Position numbers and translations under genes: made by a program. Below are positions 27,558 through 62,030 of a stretch of 64,000 bases of DNA, in pieces. Position 1 is the first letter of the stretch; each line of letters starts with the position of its first letter. The notes under the pieces were generated by a model. That model did no database searches and was not told where the DNA came from. It saw only the letters and a list, made by a program, of their open reading frames with translations. Location: NCBI GenBank assembly GCA_021432605.1, contig MU271145.1:1922001-1986000 (forward strand), read 5' to 3'. The stretch comes from Coniochaeta sp. PMI_546 (lineage: Eukaryota; Ascomycota; Sordariomycetes; Coniochaetales; Coniochaetaceae).

Positions 27558-28914
27558 TCACCTCCCCGGCCCCGGTCCGCCACGCCTCCCGCGCCCGAAC
27601 CCTCTGCCCCGCTGGCTGCCAGGCTGGACCATCCTGTCGCTGTACAGACCGTTCTGGGGCCGGCTGTCGTTGCGCGCCCTGGAACCGCCGCCGCGGTCCG
27701 TGTCCATGGGGTCGTCGAAGCCCATGGAGCCGTCCACGACGGTCTCGCGGGTGGCACGCGGTCCGCTGGGGGCGTGGGCCGGGGCGCGGGTATCGGCGGC
27801 CGGCGGGGCGGCACCGCCGACTTTGTAGTAGACGTGGATGAGGCGTCCGTCAGCCTGCGCAAGGGAAGGAACATTCGAGAGTTAGCATGACGGCTTNNNN
27901 NNNNNNNNNNNNNNNNNNNNNNNNNNNNNNNNNNNNNNNNNATATGGGGTCAGAGGGCATGGCCAATCACTTACAGTCTGGTTGTTGAAGGTGGCAATGA
28001 CATTGTCCGCACCCTCTTTGCTCTCAAAGACAATCTCGGCGATGACGATGGGCTCCGTCTTGAGTAGCCGACAGCTCTGCACCAGGCCGCCGACGGGCGT
28101 CACGGCGCTCTCGATGTCGGCCGCCGTCGTGCCGGGGGCGAAGTTCTGGGCCATGACGACAAAGGGGCCGGCGAGGCCTCGGATTGTCATGCCCTTGTTC
28201 CACGGACTGCTGGTGTTGTTGTTGTTGTTCCTGACCGTCGCTGCTGCTGCTGCTGATGACGACAAGGCCGCCGCCGGGGCGCGCGGGGCCGCCACTCTAC
28301 TCGAGGCGGGCGAGAGCTCCGTCCTTATCAGGGCTCGCGCGACCTGGGCGGCGCGCCGCTGGTCGCTGCGCACGCGGGCTGCGGGGCCGGCGTTGGGGTC
28401 CGTGATCCGGCTCGCCAGAGAGCTGGGGGCTGCCGGTCGCGGGGTGGAGGGCGCCGAGTGGCGCTCGTGGAGGTCGTGGGTCCATTCGCCGTTGATGTTG
28501 CCTGTCTGCGCGGGTTTGGGGGCTGGGGCGCCGCGGGGACCGGTCGAGGCGACGCGCTTGAGGGTGGGGGAGGGGAATGTCAGTTTTATTTGATCCAAAT
28601 GCGAGGGAAGATTAGGAAGTTGGAGGAGGGGATATAATAATAAGGTACCTTCTTTACGCCAACGCGGCCGGCCAGCGAGCCTCCGAGTGCGGGTGCCTTG
28701 GGCGGTGCACTGGAGCGGCGGTCTTTGCCAAAAATTCTGGCTGCGAGGGCTTCATTCTTTTTGCGGTCGCGGGCTAGATGAGAGTAGAGAGAGACTTGGT
28801 CAGATTCTGGCGACAGGCGACTTCTCCAAGATATGGAGAGCTGACAGCTGGGTACGCGGACGGACCTTCGTTGATGATCTTCTCGAAATCGGACGCCACT
28901 TGCTTGCCGGCCAT
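27558..28914 (-). CDS. RRM-like RNA-binding protein with RGG-type tail
   Basis: Four exons (28914-28866, 28773-28649, 28556-27975, 27854-27558) encode 350 aa; introns are 92, 92 and 120 bp, the last containing a 45-bp run of N. The N-terminus (MAGKQVASDFEKIINE, ARDRKKNEALAARIFG) is a short helix found in a conserved but unnamed fungal family. A disordered Pro/Ala/Ser-rich region follows. An RRM-like fold at about 186-262 has GPFVVMAQNFAPGTTAADIE, IAEIVFESKEGA and ADGRLIHVYYK. The tail ends GFGRGRRGGPGPGR, an RG-rich RNA-binding patch. The first donor is the unusual GTCCGT, accepted because it yields FEKIINEARDRKKNEAL. A role in mRNA packaging or export is plausible but inferred. Exon-exon phases all agree, so the N run does not disturb the model. 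Confidence 0.8.
27897..27941. other. Assembly gap (45 N)
   Basis: A run of 45 unknown bases lies inside the third intron of the RRM-like gene. Branch site GCTAAC and acceptor GCGCAG lie on one side and donor GTAAGT on the other, so both splice signals are intact. The real gap length may differ. Confidence 0.95.
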
Positions 28915-50708: not shown

Positions 50709-53700
50709 CTAATCTTCCTCGGCTTCAAATCCCTCGGCCTGTGCCTCCGCAACAGCCTCTTCCGCATCCTCAGAATCAATCACCCCCGCAGGCCCTTCGT
50801 CCGGCTGCGGCAGCGCCTCCTGCGGAGCAGCCACGTCCTCGGGCAGCCCCCGCTCGGCGCGGAGCTGCTTGATCCTCGTGTTTGTCATCTCGAAGACGTA
50901 TTGGCCGAGGTGCTCGACGTTCTCCATGACCGTCTCGCCCGCCACGGCCTTCCCCTCTTCCTCCGACAGGACCCTGGAGGAAGGCCAGAGCTCGCCCGTC
51001 ACGAGCGTCAGTTTGTCCGGCCGCTGGAGCAGCAGCTCAAACGCCTCACGCAGCTCAAAGCATGCCTCGAAGACCTCGCGCCTACCCAGGATATAGAGCC
51101 CCAGCCGGGCGCGGGACAGCGCCACTGTGAGACGGCGGATATCGCGTAAGTATCCTACCCTCGACGTGCGAGTCAACGACAGGATTATGTCTATAGAGCG
51201 GGTTAGCAAAACCGTGGCAGCAGGGGAGCCTTGGGCAACTTACAGTCGTTCTGCTCGCCCTGGTACTTGTCCACAGTGGTCACTATCCGTGGCAGCCCAA
51301 AGAGAGGATTCTTCGCGCACCGATGGGCTAGCACATCCTTGATCAGAGCCCGCTGACCGGCATATGTCGCCAGAATACTGATCTTTGCGGCCGGGTAGCC
51401 GAGCAACCGCATATACTGGTAGATGGCGACGGCATATTCTGCTTCGCCCAGGTTCTGTATAAAGTGCGGCGTCGGCTCGGATTCTCCTTTACCCTTGTAG
51501 TCCGGAACGTTGATGAATTGGTAGTCGTACTTGAAGCCCGCATTCGCCGTCAGGTACTCTTGCTGAGTCTCCACATGTGGCAGGTTACCCAGCTTGGGGT
51601 ATCTCCACTGGTAGAGTCCTGCAATCGATGGCCGAGCGCGGCCTTGTTGATCGAGTGTGATTGCCGGCACACCGAGACGCACCAGGCGGGAGAAGAGGGA
51701 CTGCTCCAGGTTTGCGTAGTGTCGGAAGGCTAGGCTCTGAATGACGGGAGAGTTCTGGAAGTGATCGCCACACAAGACAACCCTCTGCAAGGGCATCTGT
51801 CCGTCTTTGGGCTTCTGCATGGCCAAGGGGATGAAATTCTCGATCTCTGTGATCTGAGCGGCTTCTTCCATAACAACATTGTCGTAGTGGAAGCCGAGAG
51901 ATGCTATCTCCGCCCTCCTCATAGCTGCATGCGTCGACGTCATGGCGATGATACGAGCTTCGTTGATGAGCAAATAGTTCGCCTTGTCCCTGTCACGCCG
52001 CAATATCTCGAAAGGCAGAATATCTGCCAGTTCCGAGAATATCTTCGAGATGTGACGGTAGCATCCGGTGGCGATCTCCTCGACGGTCTCGCGATCTGCG
52101 CCGGGAGGGAAAAGTGGTTGAGGTGCGTCGGCGAAGTAGTAGTGGAAAGGGAAAGCTTGAACGATATCCTCCGCGGATGCCTTCTCTGATTTGAGGATCT
52201 CCTCAAATTTGGCCCACGCAGGCTCAACATAGACCGAGTTGAAATATCCAGCTGTTTCGGCTGAGTTTCCGTGAGCACCTGGCGCGCCAATACTTGCGGC
52301 CAGGCGATTGACCTCCAGAAGATACCTATCGCGATTTTGCAAGAAGGACTCGACTCTCCCAAGTTTGCTGAAATTGCCCTCCGTTTCAAGCTCTTCCTCG
52401 CCGTGACCAAGCCGCAGGAGATGTCGCTCGTCTATATCCAGGGCAACAATCTTCGCGAACAGCTGATTAAGGGCTTGGTTGCTGTGGGCGATAAGCAACG
52501 TCCTCTGGTTGGGGAAATTATGGTATATGTTGTTGATGATTTGCGTGGCAACGTCCGTCTTGCCCGTGCCTGGTGGCCCTACAATAACAGTCAGGCCTGG
52601 TTGTGTGCCAGAGATGATTGCCTCCACCTGAGCAGGAGTGAAGCGGATTTGGTTCAGTTTCGGCGCATCGACTGGATATGGGCCATTGTTGGGTGGCTTG
52701 TAGGTCGAGACTTTGAGCGTCTCCACGTCAGCGATCAGTGCAGGTTCTGCATCCCGCCTCCGCTTCTTAGAAGACTTCGCAGTCGGTTCTTGAGCCTGGC
52801 TGGCAACGTTCTCCAGCACGTAAGGTGGGCCGAAGCTTCCCGATGCATCGTCACTCGGCTCAATGATCTTGCCAGGCAGGCTCTCAATGAGGTGTTGCCA
52901 GTCCAGGAACGTGTCCCTGTAGTCGACCTTCTTGATCCGATTTGGGAGATGCTTGTATGTTGCCCCCGCCGGATCACCGTAACCGAGAAATACTTCATGG
53001 AGCCAAGAAGCCAAAGGAACGTCTGAAAGCGCCAAGTTGCGGATAGACTCAAGGACCGGTTTGAAGTTGTTTTCCCTACCGCTCCTCCGCACGATGACGT
53101 TGATCTCATCATAAACATTCGGCTTGCCCGAGGAAGACGTTTCCGTGTCCTCCTTGTATCGTTGCGGATCAAGCTTCAGTTGTATCCTTCGCGTCGAGTT
53201 TCGATCTCGGCCATCATAGTACGCCTTCGCGTCTTTGATAGGATTGCCTTTCTGATCAACTATCTGGGTAACCTCTGCCGACCGAACGGCCTTCAGGCCC
53301 ATTTGTTGAGATTCAGCCTGAGAAGCACCTCCATTCGATGACTGTTTCGCCTTCGACGCATCTACAGCAAGGAGGAAAACAACATCGCCAGGCCTTAACG
53401 ACTCCCAGTCGCGCCGGATAGACTCCGAACATTTCCGTACATCGATCACCACCTCGGCCCGTACGCTGGATGGTTTGTCGTCACCAACGAGGGCGGGAAT
53501 GACCTCCAGTATAGACGGTTTGCTGACAGGAAGCGCCATCTTCGAAAAGCCTGAGAACGAAGTCTCGCCGGGCTTCCGGGATTCTGGCTGAAGCCTTCGG
53601 AGCACATCCTCGATATCTCGGCGTATCCCGTAGAAAGACTCGCATCGGTAAAGCACCAATGATCTCCAGAGAAAGTCCCCAACGGACAGGTACTGAAGAT

Positions 53701-55257
53701 TCAGCTTGGGTAGCGCCAAGGGCCGAGATCCGTCATAATAGTCAGTTCTCATCAGGCTGTGATCGAAAAGCGTCACTTCGTCCGGGAGAACATTGAGTTT
53801 GTGAGCAGTCTCCTGGAATGTGTCCCTTTTCTCGAACGTCGATAGTAGTACCTCTAATATAAAGTTTCGATCGATGACTGCCTTGGATAAGTCAGGATAA
53901 GACGTTCTTAGGTCTAGGAGGTCCGCCAGTTGCTGTAGCTCCTCAGTAGAGAGCGGTTCAAGGAGGCCTGCCAGTTCTGTCCTCTTCGAGATCGAGCCAT
54001 AGTTCGACAAGGCGAGGACTGTCAGTTTATCCTTGAAGTGTTTCAAAGAGATCCTCTGTAATTTTGCTAGTTGTGAGCAGTGCCGGTCATAGGCCTCAGT
54101 CCGACTATATTGCACGCCGGTCTGATCATCGACTGTGAAATGCGTGTAATGAGCTAACATGGAGTAAAGGTCGCGTAAGAGGTCACTATCCTCGTCATTG
54201 AACAACGGGGAAAGAGTAAGGGCCGGTAGGACGTGGAGATCCTGCAGCAGAGTGTTGACGTATCGCCTTGTTGGGAGTTGACTTTGTAGATCTGTCAGGA
54301 ACTCGACGAACCGCTCGCAGTATTGCAGTTGTTCTGTATCGTGTAAGTAGTTGATTTCATCGAGAGAATAATGGCGTTCCTACCTTCTTTGACATCGTCC
54401 GAGTAAATCTGGTTGAGAAAATCAAGGACTAATGTGTAGAGCCAAGACCGCTCAAACCTAAGCCGGGCCTTAGTCTCGTCATCCGCAGCATCGTAGCGTT
54501 TGGCGGAAGCCTTCCAAGCTTTTCTCAAATGCGGACCGGCGTTGAGAAGCTGGTCTCTCTTCTTGTCGCTCGATAAATTGTGCCAGACTGATATTGAGAC
54601 GAGCGGCGCGCACTCCTTGCGCACTATGCCACAATCTAGGCTCTGGAAAGCATGTATGACAAAGAGGAGAACCTGTTTTCTGATAGTCCACGATAATGAT
54701 GTGTCGAGACTCATGGAGAGGATTCGTCGAAAGAGTGCTGAGAAGTCCGAGGGCCGGTCGTTGAAGATACCTGAGTGATGTTAGAAGACACACGGCTCGA
54801 GAGTTGCGCAAAGTCACTCACTCCATGTTTCCAGCCTCTCTCTTCGCTTGACATTGGCGAGCAGTACAATCAGCAGTACGTGAAAGTTGGATGAGTCTTC
54901 GGTGTATCCCGGCCAGAGATAGCTAGACAGAAATGTTAGCTGAGGTGGACTGACAAGACAGAGCTCGGATTGCATGTTAACGGACCTTTCGAGAGTTTGG
55001 AGACCTTCCAGTGCAAGTAGCGACTTGAATTGAAACCCGTCCTTCTCGATCGTATCCCATATTTCGCGTTTCAACACATCGTTCTTGACCTTGACTTTCG
55101 TAGTACGTTTCGACTTCTTCAACCAATGTTGCTTGGCGAGGGCCGCGAACTCGCCCTCCCCCTCGTCTTCGCGGACATTGTCGCTGGAAGCTAGCTGAGC
55201 TGAGGTTCCTTGTGAACGCGATGGGGCACTGCTTCGTAGTCGCTTTGCCGGAGGCAT
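50709..55257 (-). CDS. Intron-binding spliceosomal helicase Aquarius (Cwf11)
   Basis: Five exons (55257-54986, 54922-54822, 54770-54384, 54333-51244, 51190-50709) encode 1443 aa; introns are 63, 51, 50 and 53 bp. The N-terminal armadillo-like region includes SYLWPGYTEDSSNFH and LSLDTSLSWT-type helices. The helicase core has Q-motif-like RFTPAQVEAIISG, Walker A GPPGTGKT (about 840), the DEAD-like box VMEEAAQITEIENF, LCGDHFQNSPVI, LDQQGRARPSI, VDKYQGEQND and the motif VI region VALSRARLGLYI. This is the Aquarius branch of UPF1-like SF1 helicases, which binds the intron upstream of the branch site in the spliceosome. The C-terminus is acidic (EDAEEAVAEAQAEGFEAEED). The first donor is GTCCGT. The gene is head-to-head with the THO1 fusion gene. 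Confidence 0.95.
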
Positions 55258-55807: not shown

Positions 55808-58518
55808 ATGCCTTCTCTCGAGATACAAAGTCCAGTTGTCCCCGGTGTGTCCGCTGTGGATAGCCTCCTGGAAGAACTACTTCAACATGCCGAAATAGTC
55901 AAACAGACGGCATCGATCGAGCCTGCTCTCGCTACATCGGATTTCGAAGATCTGCCAGCTCGATTAGTCCAGGCCCTCGCTCCGACTGGCTCACCGGAAG
56001 ACACAGACGAGAATGGCGATCTCAGCAAGGCACGACGGTTCGCGATCATCGAGACCGTCGCGCGCGACAAGTTCAGCAATCTGATTGTGAGTGGAGGAGG
56101 GCAAGAGACGGTGTAGTCGACAACACTGACCACACCCTAGGCGACAACTTCAATTGACTCTCCAGCGTTTGTCCGAGTCTGGAATCTTTTCGATATCCTC
56201 TCTATCCTCTCCGACAGTGGAAGTTGCGAACCTGCGCTCTTGTTTTGGCTTGTGGAAGAGTTGCTCGACAGCCAGACGATCTCGGGATGCCGCAAAGTCT
56301 TTGATTACCTCGAGTCCCGCCGCGAGAAGATCACTTCAAAGCATTTCGAGCAGAAGAAGTTGGTTATTTTACGGACGTGCAATGAGCTACTTAGGCGACT
56401 ATCTCGAGCAGAGGATACGGCCTTCTGCGGCAGAGTTTTTATTTTCATGTTCCAGAGTTTTCCGCTGGGTGACAAGAGCTCGGTCAATCTTCGCGGAGAA
56501 TACCATGTTGAGAACGAGACGACATTTGATCAGGACTTCAAGAAGGATGGAAGCGCAGAAAAGATGGACGTGGACCCGCCAAGCAATGGAGTCCAAGAAG
56601 CCTCAGATACCAAGGCTTCGTCGAAGGCCGCATCCTCCGACGGAAAGACATCATCGCAGACCGCTAGCCGTCTTGACCCGGATCAACTGTATCCTGTTTT
56701 CTGGCCTCTACAGTCCATCTTCAGCCAGCCAAAAAAGCTATTTGAGCCTGCCCATTTAGCCCAGTTCAAGGCAGGTATAGAGGCCACTATGGCCACATTC
56801 AGCACCATCAAACCTGAGGCTCAGAAGCAAAAGCAAGAAAAGGACAAGCAGGGCGAGGATACGAAGCGGAGCCCGAAGGAGAAAGCGGAAGATGGCGATG
56901 ATGAACTCGCTAACGCGTTCAATCCGAAATATCTGACCAGCCGGGATCTATTCGAGTTAGAGGTAATGTCTCCAACAGGTGCTCACATTGATCCTGTTGC
57001 TAACTCCCCCGTAGATCAGCGATCTATCATTCCGGCGATATGTCTTGGTTCAAGCTCTGATCGCCTTGGACTTTCTGCTATCTCTAACACCCAAAGCCAA
57101 GGAGAAGTTAAGCACTACCAAAGTTCAAAACAAGTCTGTGATGTACTCAGACCAGGTTCTGAGCGATGATGACGCGAAGTGGGCGAACGACATGAAGAAG
57201 ACGATCGGCGACTACATTAGACAGGGGCATCCCGTAGAGGGTCCCTATTTCCTGAGGATGGTTGAATCGGTGCTGGTCCGAGATAAGAACTGGATACGGT
57301 GGAAGGTGGAGAACTGCCCTTCTATAGAGATGCCGCAAGTCTCACCTCAAGAGTTCAAGGAAGCCAAGGCCGTCGCGCGGAAGATGGCGACCAACAAACG
57401 TCCATTTTCGGCGATGGGAGCTCTCTCTCTGGACTTCTTAGCCGAGGACGGTGATGGCGACGTGATGAAGAAGTTCAGGTCGAGAGAGCGGTGCGAGGCT
57501 CCCGACCTGATGTCTTTCCGGAGAAAGATTGCCGACGACGATTTTGAGATTGAGATGCCGACAAATAACCAGACCAAGGCAGCCGCCATCGAAGGCAAAG
57601 CCAGTAAGAGCTGGAGGGCGCTGAGGATTGCCAGCCAATACAAGCTAGCCTCATTCGACAGGATTGACAACCCGGAGAAGATCGATGCTGTCTTTGAAGA
57701 GCAACCAGCAGTACAGCCTGAGGAGACCGCTCCAAACTCGGCTGAAGCAGCGGATCTTCCGGATGATCGTCGACCAGTCGTCCTTGTTGGTCCGAGCGGT
57801 GTTGGGAAGTCGTCACTGATCCAAATGCTGCTCGAAAAGCATGTGGGTGTGTTTGAGAAAGTACCGGCGTACATTACAAGGAAGGCCGGACCAGGGGAAT
57901 CAGATGGTCGGGACTACCACTTCGTGGATGCGCAAGCATTCAGTATGATGCGCGATGGAGACCAATTCCTCCAGTACACGGACACCAGCGGCGTCAACTA
58001 TGCTACAAGTCGGAGGCTAGTCGATACTGTCACCGAAGCCGGGAAAGTTCCGGTCCTTGTGATGGATCATGAGGTGAGTCACTACCTGTGATTGAGTCGA
58101 CTATGGTTGGTAGCTTTCAACTGACACGTCATGGCAGGGTGTACAACAAGTGAAAGATTTAGAATACGCGGCACGCTATGTGTTTATCAAGCCATCGAGT
58201 GCTGAGATCTTGGGAAATCGCCTAAAAGAGAAAGAGATCTCGAATGAAGCGATCGAGGAGATCCTGAAGCGTCTCCCAGGTCAGCTTGAAACCGCCATTG
58301 CCAGCGATTTCTATGACAAAGTCATCACAGGGGACAATGTCGAGGAGGCATACGAGTGCCTCCGTGAATTTATCTATAGCCCCGTGGCAAATGGCACAGC
58401 TGCAAACGGCGAGGTGGCACTGGACAACACCGAAGGAGACAAGGACCAGGCGATGCCCGATGCTTCCGATATTCCAATCTTGAGTTCGAAAGATACAAAT
58501 GGTGGCGGTATGAATTAG
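55808..58518 (+). CDS. THO complex subunit 1 (Hpr1/THOC1) fused to a guanylate-kinase-like domain
   Basis: Four exons (55808-56086, 56141-56962, 57015-58073, 58138-58518) encode 846 aa; introns are 54, 52 and 64 bp, all phase 0. Residues 1 to about 600 are THOC1: helices such as LLFWLVEELLDSQTISGCRK, YPVFWPLQSIFSQPKKLFEP and the signature LFELEISDLSFRRYVLVQAL. THO couples transcription to mRNA export. Residues about 618-800 form a guanylate-kinase-like fold: RPVVLVGPSGVGKSSLIQML (P-loop 626-633), ITRKAGPGESDGRDYHFVDA, SGVNYATSRRLVD, VLVMDHEGVQQV, RYVFIKPSSAEIL and FYDKVITGDNVEEAYECL. THOC1 C-terminal sequence and the P-loop lie in the same 353-codon exon, so the fusion is not a splicing artefact. 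Several substrate residues are altered (see findings). Confidence 0.92.
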
Positions 58519-60208
58519 CATGAACCGGCGTCCGTAGAGTGCCTTTGTGTGCTCAGCGAGGAGGAGGAGTCGAGCGTTGTCTATGATACCCGTTTTCTTA
58601 ATCGTGATGCCTTCGGTGATATGTCCTCTACTTTTTTTTGCATTGCGATGCCCTGTTCCTCAAAATCTGTTTTAACTTAAGAAGCAGTTTCGACAGACTG
58701 CTACACGTGTATGTGTGAAGTCTGTCAATGTGTTTATGAACCCATGACTCATCACTCTGGGTCGCTGGCACCGAGCGACCGTCCGCACGGCGCAAAGAGG
58801 TGTGTCGAGCACAACAAACCCTTTGTGTTACAGCAACTTTAGCGATGCTGTGGATACTGGGTCTCCAACGGTACACACGTGTGTGACTTCGCGGGGAGTA
58901 GTCGACATTCCATGGAATTCTCGGTAACCCCAGCTGCATATCTGACGTCAACGATTCAGGGTCATCTGGTCCCTGAATCTGTAACGCACCAGAGAATCGT
59001 GTAACTGATGCACCTAGGTGAGAGGAATGGGCCGCGTCTCTTGTGTGTGGAATTCTACGACTTATTACATTGTAGGCCCCGTATCGCAGGACTGACCAGC
59101 CGACCAATTTTCCTCAAAGCGGGTGTGCGTGTGCTGCTCATAAGCAAGATTAGTAGGGTTCCGATGACCACAGCTTGATGAATTTGAGATGCGGTCGATG
59201 ATTGAGCCTGCGATCGATTTGGGGTAGAAAGAGTGTGGGTCAGGCTGCTCAGCTTGTCCTATTTCAGCCAAGCGCTGACAAGGATGGGTTGACGTATTTT
59301 CAACTGCGGTAGCCGCTCGTTGAAGCTCGACGTAGCTGGCTGTTCCGATACTGATTAATGCCGCTGAGATTATGCTCAGTCGCCTCACAAGCTGAAGTAC
59401 CGGTACCCATCTCTACGTGCCAAGGGCTGGAACCATGAGTGGCTTCCACCCGTCCAGCCGGCAGTGTCCTTTATGCGCAAATCCAGTGCTCCCAGGAGTG
59501 TACACTACACTACACTACTCTAGTCTAGTGCTCCCATCTTCTCGAGGTTGTTGCTAGATGTCGTTGAGCGTAGAACTTCCTCCAACCTTCCCTTCATTTT
59601 GCATGACGACTAGTACACGAGAGTCGCGCTCTTCTTTCAGAACCCTCCTCCGTCGCTGCTACACACCTCTACACTGTACCCCGGCACCCGCAATCTGTGC
59701 GGATCATCATGTGTCTCTCATAACATCAAGGTTCTCCACAAGCAACGTACATTTACCTTGTTCTCCGCCTCAATAGAGACAGACAACACGACGGGGGCAC
59801 CATTTGGCCTATCTATATACGCGCAAAAGGCATACATCTAGGTCAAGGATCTCATCCTACAGACATACTTTCACGCTTCTCAAGAGTTCCTATGGCCAGC
59901 TCAAGCAAACATCTTGCAAATCACACCATCATTCCCCACGATCGTCTTCTCTAGCCTAGCCTGTCACCACGCTACTGTTCCGCATACTTAGCCCATGTCA
60001 CTACCCTGGTACTGGAGCCAACGCCGACCCTTCGTCACAACGTCCATTGTTACACTGGGAACGACAACACCGGAGCGACTCCCGTGAACTGGTGAAAGAT
60101 AGCCAGCGTCAGCTCAAATCCGTTTGATCCAGGAAAAGACTCCACACAAGCTGTCATACCGACATCATTCATGCATCCAGCAATTGGCTGGACCTCATAT
60201 CACAGTTC
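58519..60208. other. Intergenic, no supported gene
   Basis: These 1.7 kb hold the THO1 3' UTR and the promoter of the LON-RING gene. A short CACTA-type array (TACACTACACTACACTACTC) lies at about 59501-59520. A 107-codon minus-strand frame near 59065-59388 starts hydrophobic like a signal peptide but has no ATG in frame. Confidence 0.5.
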
Positions 60209-62030
60209 ATGTCCTCATCTCGGGCAGACGATGCTGTTGCGACCTCGTCACTACCTCTTCACGGTACCCTGTCCGTCACTGACGACGCGGCGGTCGAGGT
60301 TCCTGTAGACGAACAGCAACATCTTACCGTTGAGCAAATCAGGGATGTTGTCCGTTTGGTACAATGCCCGAGATGCTCCTTTCCTCTGCGGCAGCCCGTG
60401 ACTCTACCGTGCGGAAAGACGATATGCAGGCTGTGTCTTCCTGAACAATATGTTCGGGCAAATATATCATACCCCGCGACTGAGTCTAGGGCTCGGGGCT
60501 TCCGTTGCCCCTTTCCTGACTGCGAAAAGGAGCACGCAGTCGGTGATTGCAGCGCAAATGTCGCCCTAAACAAAGTCTTACCAGGGGTCCGGGCGGAATA
60601 TGAAAAGGGTCGGGAGGTCGCCCTCACCAGTTGTCTATCGACACATGTGGTGGCCAAAAATCAATGGGAGGCGGCCGGCGTGCCTTCCTTACGAGACGAG
60701 GGATCTGTTTCGAGGTCTCTTCCCGGCGGACGGCTGCTGGCAACATATCTCCTCGCCGAGATGGGAGAGCTCGACTACAATGCCGAGGTCACTTATCTCA
60801 GCCCAGACAGCACTGAGCACGCCAACCTCGATGCTGCTATTTTAGCCCATGTAAAAGAGGTGACAAGGGCAGAAATGGATTGTCAGGTCTGTTACGCTCT
60901 GTATTACGACGCAGTCACAACTCCGTGCGGGCACACATACTGTCGCGTTTGCCTTCAACGCGTGCTGGACCATGCGAGGCATTGTCCCATATGTCGACGG
61001 CCCCTTTCCATACAGCCACTTATCTATCGTGAGGCTTGCCCAGAAAACGAACTGATAAAGAGAATCACGACGTATTTCTGGGCAGATATCCTCGAGGAAC
61101 GCCGGCAAGCAGTGCTAGCCGAGGCCATCAGTCACCAGGCGGGCGAATGCGACATGCCTCTTTTCATTTGTACACTCGCCTTCCCTTCCATGCCTACTTT
61201 TCTCCACATTTTCGAACCCAGGTATCGTCTGATGATTAGGCGGGCTCTGGAAGGAAACCGGACCTTTGGCATGGTATTGTATGACCACCCCGGCTTCGTG
61301 GAGTTTGGAACAGTGTTACGGATCGTCAATGTTGAGTTTTTCGACGATGGCCGGAGTCTCCTTGAGACAATCGGGGTTTCCCGATTCCGGGTACTCCGGC
61401 ATACTTCGGTCGACGGCTATACGGTGGCGAAGGTCGAGATTATCAATGATATCAGCATCGCAGAAGAGGAGGCACTAGAAGCGGCGGAAATCCAAGGGGC
61501 TCTGAGTACGGTGTCTGGAACAGACAACAACTCGGAACAGCCACCAGTCACAAGCACCTCCAGGTTCCCGACCACGAGACAGGAGATAGAGACTACACCG
61601 ACGCAGATACTGATGGATTTTGCCATGGATTTCGTCAGACGCATGCAGCAACAGAGTGTTGGGTGGCTGACCGCGCGCATCTTGGCGATATACGGCCAGT
61701 GTCCGAGCGACCCGGCTATCTTCCCCGGGTGGTTCGGCAACATACTCCCCGTTAGAGAGACGGAGAAATATCGCTTACTCGAAACTACGAGTGTCCGACA
61801 GAGGTTGAAAATATGCTGCGGTTGGATCTTGGAGTGGGAAGCTAGCCGGTGGTAAGTCTTTTCTCGCATGTCTCCTCTGTGATGTCACAGACCCGCCACT
61901 TGAGCACAGCTTGTTCGTGACCCCCGGGCCTATCGGACATTACGTTGTGGCATATACACAGCTCTATGGTCCTGCGATTGGTATTCCCATTGGAATCACC
62001 GCACTGTGGCTGATGCGCGGCGTCTTCTAG
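60209..62030 (+). CDS. RING-RING-LON protein (LONRF-like ubiquitin ligase) with C-terminal membrane segment
   Basis: Two exons (60209-61851 and 61910-62030) with a 58-bp intron encode 587 aa. RING 1 starts at C53 (CPRCSFPLRQP, LPCGKTICRLC, FRCPFPDCEKEH). RING 2 starts at C225 (CQVCYALYYDAVTTPCGHTY, CRVC, HCPICRRPL). A LON substrate-binding domain spans about 315-540 (FICTLAFPSMPTFLHIFEPR, RTFGMVLYD, LLETIGVSRFRVL). Without splicing the protein would end ASRW; the donor TGGTAAGT and acceptor GCACAG instead add LFVTPGPIGHYVVAYT and a hydrophobic segment GPAIGIPIGITALWLM, a likely membrane helix or tail anchor. Animal LONRF proteins have RING and LON domains and act as E3 ligases. Substrate and membrane are unknown; the terminal exon is well supported by phase but lacks transcript proof. 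Confidence 0.85.

Follow-up and report, generated by a model that had tools for sequence, protein, structure and literature searches.

A Coniochaeta gene encoding a THOC1 domain followed by a guanylate-kinase-fold domain with an apparently worn GMP site

The window analysed here is a stretch of 64,000 nucleotides of Coniochaeta DNA. Its gene content and short GT-AG introns point to a fungus. Between positions 55808 and 58518 it carries, on the plus strand, a gene of four exons, whose product combines a THO complex subunit 1 (THOC1) domain, efThoc1, with a C-terminal guanylate kinase (GK) domain. Its main features are the following.

55808-56086, plus strand: exon 1, start codon ATG through aa 93 (translation; followed by GT-AG intron 56087-56140)
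56141-56962, plus strand: exon 2, initial part of efThoc1 (translation and efThoc1 match at aa 106-607)
57015-58073, plus strand: exon 3, remaining efThoc1, linker, P-loop and GMP-binding part of the GK domain (single open frame)
57789-57812, plus strand: P-loop GPSGVGKS, aa 626-633 (translation, codon scoring and DNA pattern search)
58138-58518, plus strand: exon 4, GK lid and C-terminal GK part, C-terminal tail and stop codon TAG (58516-58518)

Once spliced, the four exons encode 846 aa and a stop. The three introns are of the GT-AG type (54, 52 and 64 bp), and exons 3 and 4 both start at a codon boundary. An earlier note on this DNA had read exon 3 as running without interruption from the THOC1 signature to the P-loop, and translation bears this out: SFRRYVLVQALIAL and GPSGVGKS lie in the same frame of that exon, with no stop codon at the junction of the two parts. 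When codons were scored in overlapping windows, the annotated frame ranked first of six in every window of exon 3 (8 of 8) and of exon 4 (3 of 3). Its minimum, +0.07 bits per codon, fell in the C-terminal tail; within exon 3 the score dropped to +0.08 bits per codon across the linker and P-loop (57735-57914). Such a fall, in a gene model that rests on genomic sequence, is what a mis-joining of two adjacent genes might leave. However, a single open exon spans the junction, and no Met is present from aa 548 to the P-loop at aa 626, so that a free-standing GK protein would have to begin in a further 5' exon that was not seen. The same three-intron fusion has also been published for another fungus (PMC5732230). 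Given the position of the junction and the missing Met, mis-joining is hardly probable at all. The DNA pattern tailored to the P-loop had a single occurrence in the 64-kb window; as it was built from the gene itself it has little bearing on chance, on which the profile E-values given below do bear.

A divergent gene lies upstream (51203-55257, minus strand). It encodes the intron-binding helicase Aquarius/Cwf11, with three Aquarius N-terminal Pfam domains and AAA_11/AAA_12, and its start, as placed by eye, is about 550 bp from that of the THOC1 gene. The pair, both concerned with nuclear mRNA processing, may be driven from a common promoter region. Downstream, a gene at 60128-61855 (plus strand) encodes RING fingers and a LON substrate-binding domain. 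Unresolved bases at about 27895-27942 appear as X in the translations, and a search of the whole 64-kb window against Rfam gave 0 matches at gathering scores.

A Pfam search of the 846-aa product, which the earlier note had proposed as a check, recovered both domains. The efThoc1 match (PF11957) is nearly full length, covering profile positions 1-476 of 490 at aa 106-607 with 487.4 bits (cut-off 27, E 6e-146). Guanylate_kin (PF00625) follows at aa 619-800 with 122.7 bits (cut-off 25.2, E 2e-35, profile positions 2-180 of 182), and the P-loop GPSGVGKS conforms to GxxGxGK[ST]. Among the 20 Pfam families reported at E values up to 10, one further family passed its cut-off: MMR_HSR1, which matched this P-loop stretch too, with 24.1 versus 21.9 bits. 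The proposed fusion of THOC1 with a guanylate-kinase-like domain thus holds, at 487 and 123 bits within one protein, and an efThoc1 domain joined to a guanylate-kinase fold is confirmed as real in the gene model, transcript evidence aside.

Human THOC1 ends in a death domain, and the C-terminus of yeast Hpr1 is not known to carry a GK domain. When the first 620 aa were compared with all PDB chains, human THOC1 was matched with E values of 9e-41 (7znk) and 1e-40 (7apk), the 7znk match covering aa 119-578 and extending to chain residue 505. Stretches common to both proteins, such as LLRRLS, FCGR and WRALR, are spread over the whole domain. Human THOC1 thus resembles the Coniochaeta protein in its efThoc1 domain; in contrast, none of the 46 PDB matches of the GK domain is a THOC1 chain. 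Apart from human THOC1 chains, the matches of the first 620 aa up to E 10 comprised a single further chain (E 1.8); yeast Hpr1 was not among them. In the yeast complex, Sub2 is bound by a Tho2-Hpr1 platform (PMC7744097). By homology to the human THOC1 chains, we infer that the Coniochaeta protein would assemble into a THO complex. Two scans of viral contigs gave no relatives, either among 20 pattern matches for the 846-aa protein or among 86 for a THOC1 alignment.

Whether this architecture had been described in Pezizomycotina was left open in the earlier note. It is in fact already known: a 2017 study of Magnaporthe oryzae reported MoGuk2 (MGG_06394) and its knock-out (Cai et al. 2017, PMC5732230). 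MoGuk2 is an 810-aa protein encoded by a gene with three introns, with an N-terminal efThoc1 and a C-terminal Guanylate_kin domain. The Coniochaeta protein has the same order of efThoc1 and GuKc, the same number of introns and a similar size of about 800 aa (846 versus 810), a likeness drawn from the described architecture and not from the sequence of MoGuk2, which was published as a guanylate kinase. Cai et al. interpret it as an enzyme of GTP synthesis, while noting the link of efThoc1 to elongation and mRNA export; the parts of their paper considered here contain no tests of THO assembly or export (PMC5732230). The enzyme reading is repeated in a 2024 review (PMC10879430), and MoGuk2 is also mentioned in PMC10055536 and PMC7987659. 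Among the papers found on THOC1, Hpr1 or THO together with guanylate kinase, judged mostly from titles and the first lines of abstracts, PMC5732230 alone describes the fusion; judged in the same way, no publication ties MoGuk2 to TREX. The name MoThoc1 has been given to a different protein of M. oryzae, MGG_04399 (PMC9767378). We considered whether MoThoc1 was a second name of MoGuk2 and rejected this, the locus numbers being different (MGG_04399 versus MGG_06394; PMC9767378). With the name already taken by MGG_04399, either of the two proteins may be the THO subunit of M. oryzae.

The GK part resembles enzymes over its full length. In comparisons with PDB chains, aa 614-802 matched the human guanylate kinase with 107 bits and that of yeast with 103, whereas MAGUK chains reached at most 64 bits (MPP5 64, Dlg and CASK at most 44) and LRGUK 55. 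FAP42, which was listed first, owes its 108 bits to a sum over several repeats, the best single repeat giving 39. MAGUK, LRGUK and FAP42, all found as PDB matches, resemble the Coniochaeta protein in having a GK fold within a larger protein, but their partner domains differ from efThoc1. Identity of the GK domain to the yeast, human and mouse enzymes was 34-36% (yeast 35%), and to bacterial sequences 34% in the median and 38% at best. In a tree of GK domains, the Coniochaeta sequence lay on a long branch (1.34) and grouped with two sequences from Dormiibacterota (support 0.89), a kinship that we treat as long-branch noise. It matches yeast Guk1 and human GUK1 over the whole domain and, like them, has the P-loop and a number of residues of the GMP site and lid. 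It differs from them in its score against the NCBI equivalog profile for guanylate kinase, TIGR03263 (126.6, below the cut-off of 160.45), which all six controls passed (yeast 228, human 209, four bacterial sequences 212-244), and in a set of near-invariant columns.

These columns were defined on 83 references, comprising the yeast, human and mouse enzymes and 80 bacterial sequences, the best 80 of at least 583 guanylate kinase relatives among 596 stretches retrieved by a contig scan. The choice of bacterial sequences was guided by two peptide patterns (yeast residues 2-11 and 42-50) and by how closely they resemble the Coniochaeta domain; they are taxonomically uneven, with many Polynucleobacter and Sphingomonadales, so that counts per column are not independent. 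The references include no known inactive GK domains such as those of MAGUKs. At least 95% conservation was found in 33 columns, of which the Coniochaeta domain retains 22 and departs at 11. In the numbering of the yeast enzyme without its Met, the departures are at S32 (faced by K or by V in different alignments) and S34A, T36I, R41G, E69Q, A71T, G79A, P123S, R135K, A150Q and N168G; none falls within the two stretches used for selection. When each reference was left out in turn, departures numbered 0 (55 references), 1 (18), 2 (6) or 3 (4), hence at most 3, with column totals of 33-35 in the six references where these were given. Among the 80 bacterial sequences, S34 was retained in 77, R41 in 79, and T36, E69 and R135 in all 80; each of the five is changed here. 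Two of the changes concern the following codons.

57888-57890, plus strand: Gly659, at the position of yeast R41, a GMP-phosphate-binding arginine (alignment; role from PMC4718807, offset in numbering inferred)
57972-57974, plus strand: Gln687, at the position of yeast E69 (alignment; E in 80/80 bacterial sequences)

The P-loop, R38, Y50, Y78, R131 and R146 are kept. Of the residues that we take to form the conserved GMP site (yeast S34, R38, R41, Y50, E69 and Y78), S34, R41 and E69 are thus replaced, by A, G and Q. In guanylate kinases, E69 and S34 contact the guanine, and N168 lies near the adenine. The ATP half of the domain seems better preserved than the GMP half, although R135 and N168 are changed as well. 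From these alignments, much of the GMP site appears to be gone from the GK domain of this copy while its P-loop is intact, a wear known from one fusion sequence, that of Coniochaeta. Since the P-loop is intact, a nucleotide-binding module is possible, one of the two options under which the earlier note envisaged a regulatory input to TREX, as yet hypothetical.

In guanylate kinases, R40, R43, Y80 and Y82 hold the phosphate of GMP, and in GK protein-interaction domains that of a phosphoserine (PMC4718807). Single changes in the hinge (S36, numbered S35 in PMC3335814, and F33) are reported to cut or abolish kinase activity and to confer protein binding (PMC4718807, PMC3335814). The hinge of the Coniochaeta domain is unlike that of the enzymes and contains a proline, which together with the GMP-site changes would suit the MAGUK-like module suggested in the earlier note, bringing in this case a phosphorylated partner to THO. 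Yet R40 and R43 of PMC4718807 would correspond to R38 and R41 here, an offset that we infer from the sequences, so that of the two arginines that hold the phosphate in enzymes and MAGUKs alike, the first is kept and the second is Gly. Moreover, the PDZ or SH3 domains that accompany the GK domain in a MAGUK were not found among the 20 Pfam families, and the GK sequence is closer to enzymes than to MAGUKs, as the PDB scores indicate. The phosphopeptide-binding suggestion does not stand up well to these observations, and we regard it as quite improbable.

Alternatively, the protein would be bifunctional, a working GMP kinase carried by a THOC1-like protein, supplying GDP in the nucleus or serving GTP synthesis in general, as Cai et al. 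propose for MoGuk2. In heterozygous guk1 yeast, GDP was 6.72 with MoGUK2, against 3.54 with MoGUK1 and 2.92 with the empty vector, and in the MoGUK2 deletion mutant GDP and GTP were decreased and GMP was increased (PMC5732230). These data, the GDP rise and the pool shifts, which Cai et al. take for enzyme activity, speak against a complete loss of activity and against a worn GMP site in MoGuk2 as well; the intact P-loop and the lid arginines R131 and R146 of the Coniochaeta domain also favour an active enzyme. Cellular nucleotide pools are, however, an indirect measure of enzyme activity, and S34, T36, R41, E69 and R135, all changed in the Coniochaeta domain, as well as its TIGR03263 score, argue against an active kinase, which we consider unlikely.

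The MoGuk2 deletions bear on the weight of the two domains. The MoGUK2 knock-out is defective in sporulation, perithecia and infection, and GDP and ATP rescue it in part (PMC5732230). None of the three deletion constructs (efThoc1, GuKc and P-loop) restored vegetative growth, which indicates that the GK part matters. Conidial morphology and virulence were not rescued without efThoc1, whereas they were partially rescued without GuKc or the P-loop; the P-loop deletion was the mildest in these respects, and efThoc1 mattered most (PMC5732230).

Taken together, we consider it probable, with moderate confidence, that the gene encodes an Hpr1/THOC1 protein ending in a GK module that is degenerate and may bind ATP. 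This reading is favoured by the two domain matches and the human THOC1 match, the retained P-loop, R38, Y50, R131 and R146, the changes at 11 of the 33 columns, the score below the equivalog cut-off, and the greater severity, for conidial morphology and virulence, of deleting efThoc1 than of deleting GuKc or the P-loop. Like its yeast and human counterparts, the THOC1 part would assemble with Tho2 and Sub2/UAP56. The GK domain attached at its C-terminus would bind ATP or another nucleotide, its phosphorylation of GMP being weak or nil, and its main role on the export complex would be that of a nucleotide-responsive or protein-docking module. Against an identity as THOC1 stand the name MoThoc1 borne by MGG_04399 and the lack of a matching yeast Hpr1 chain. 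A bolder proposal, rather doubtful at present, is that MoGuk2 and the Coniochaeta protein are the Hpr1/THOC1 of the filamentous-fungal THO complex, with a pseudo-guanylate-kinase that binds ATP and not GMP as a nucleotide-gated switch of export. The effects of the knock-out on growth, sporulation and infection would then stem from faulty export and not from a shortage of GTP.

The fusion itself is already in the literature; what is new here is an apparently worn GMP site beside an intact P-loop in the Coniochaeta copy. A protein with a strong THOC1 domain is classed in the literature as a metabolic enzyme, and the phenotype of its knock-out was published under GTP synthesis. Because that phenotype is already published, its reinterpretation as that of a TREX subunit is directly testable. 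To our knowledge, yeast and animals have no P-loop domain built into the mRNA-export complex; if the proposed reading is true, such a domain would give this complex a built-in nucleotide or partner sensor.
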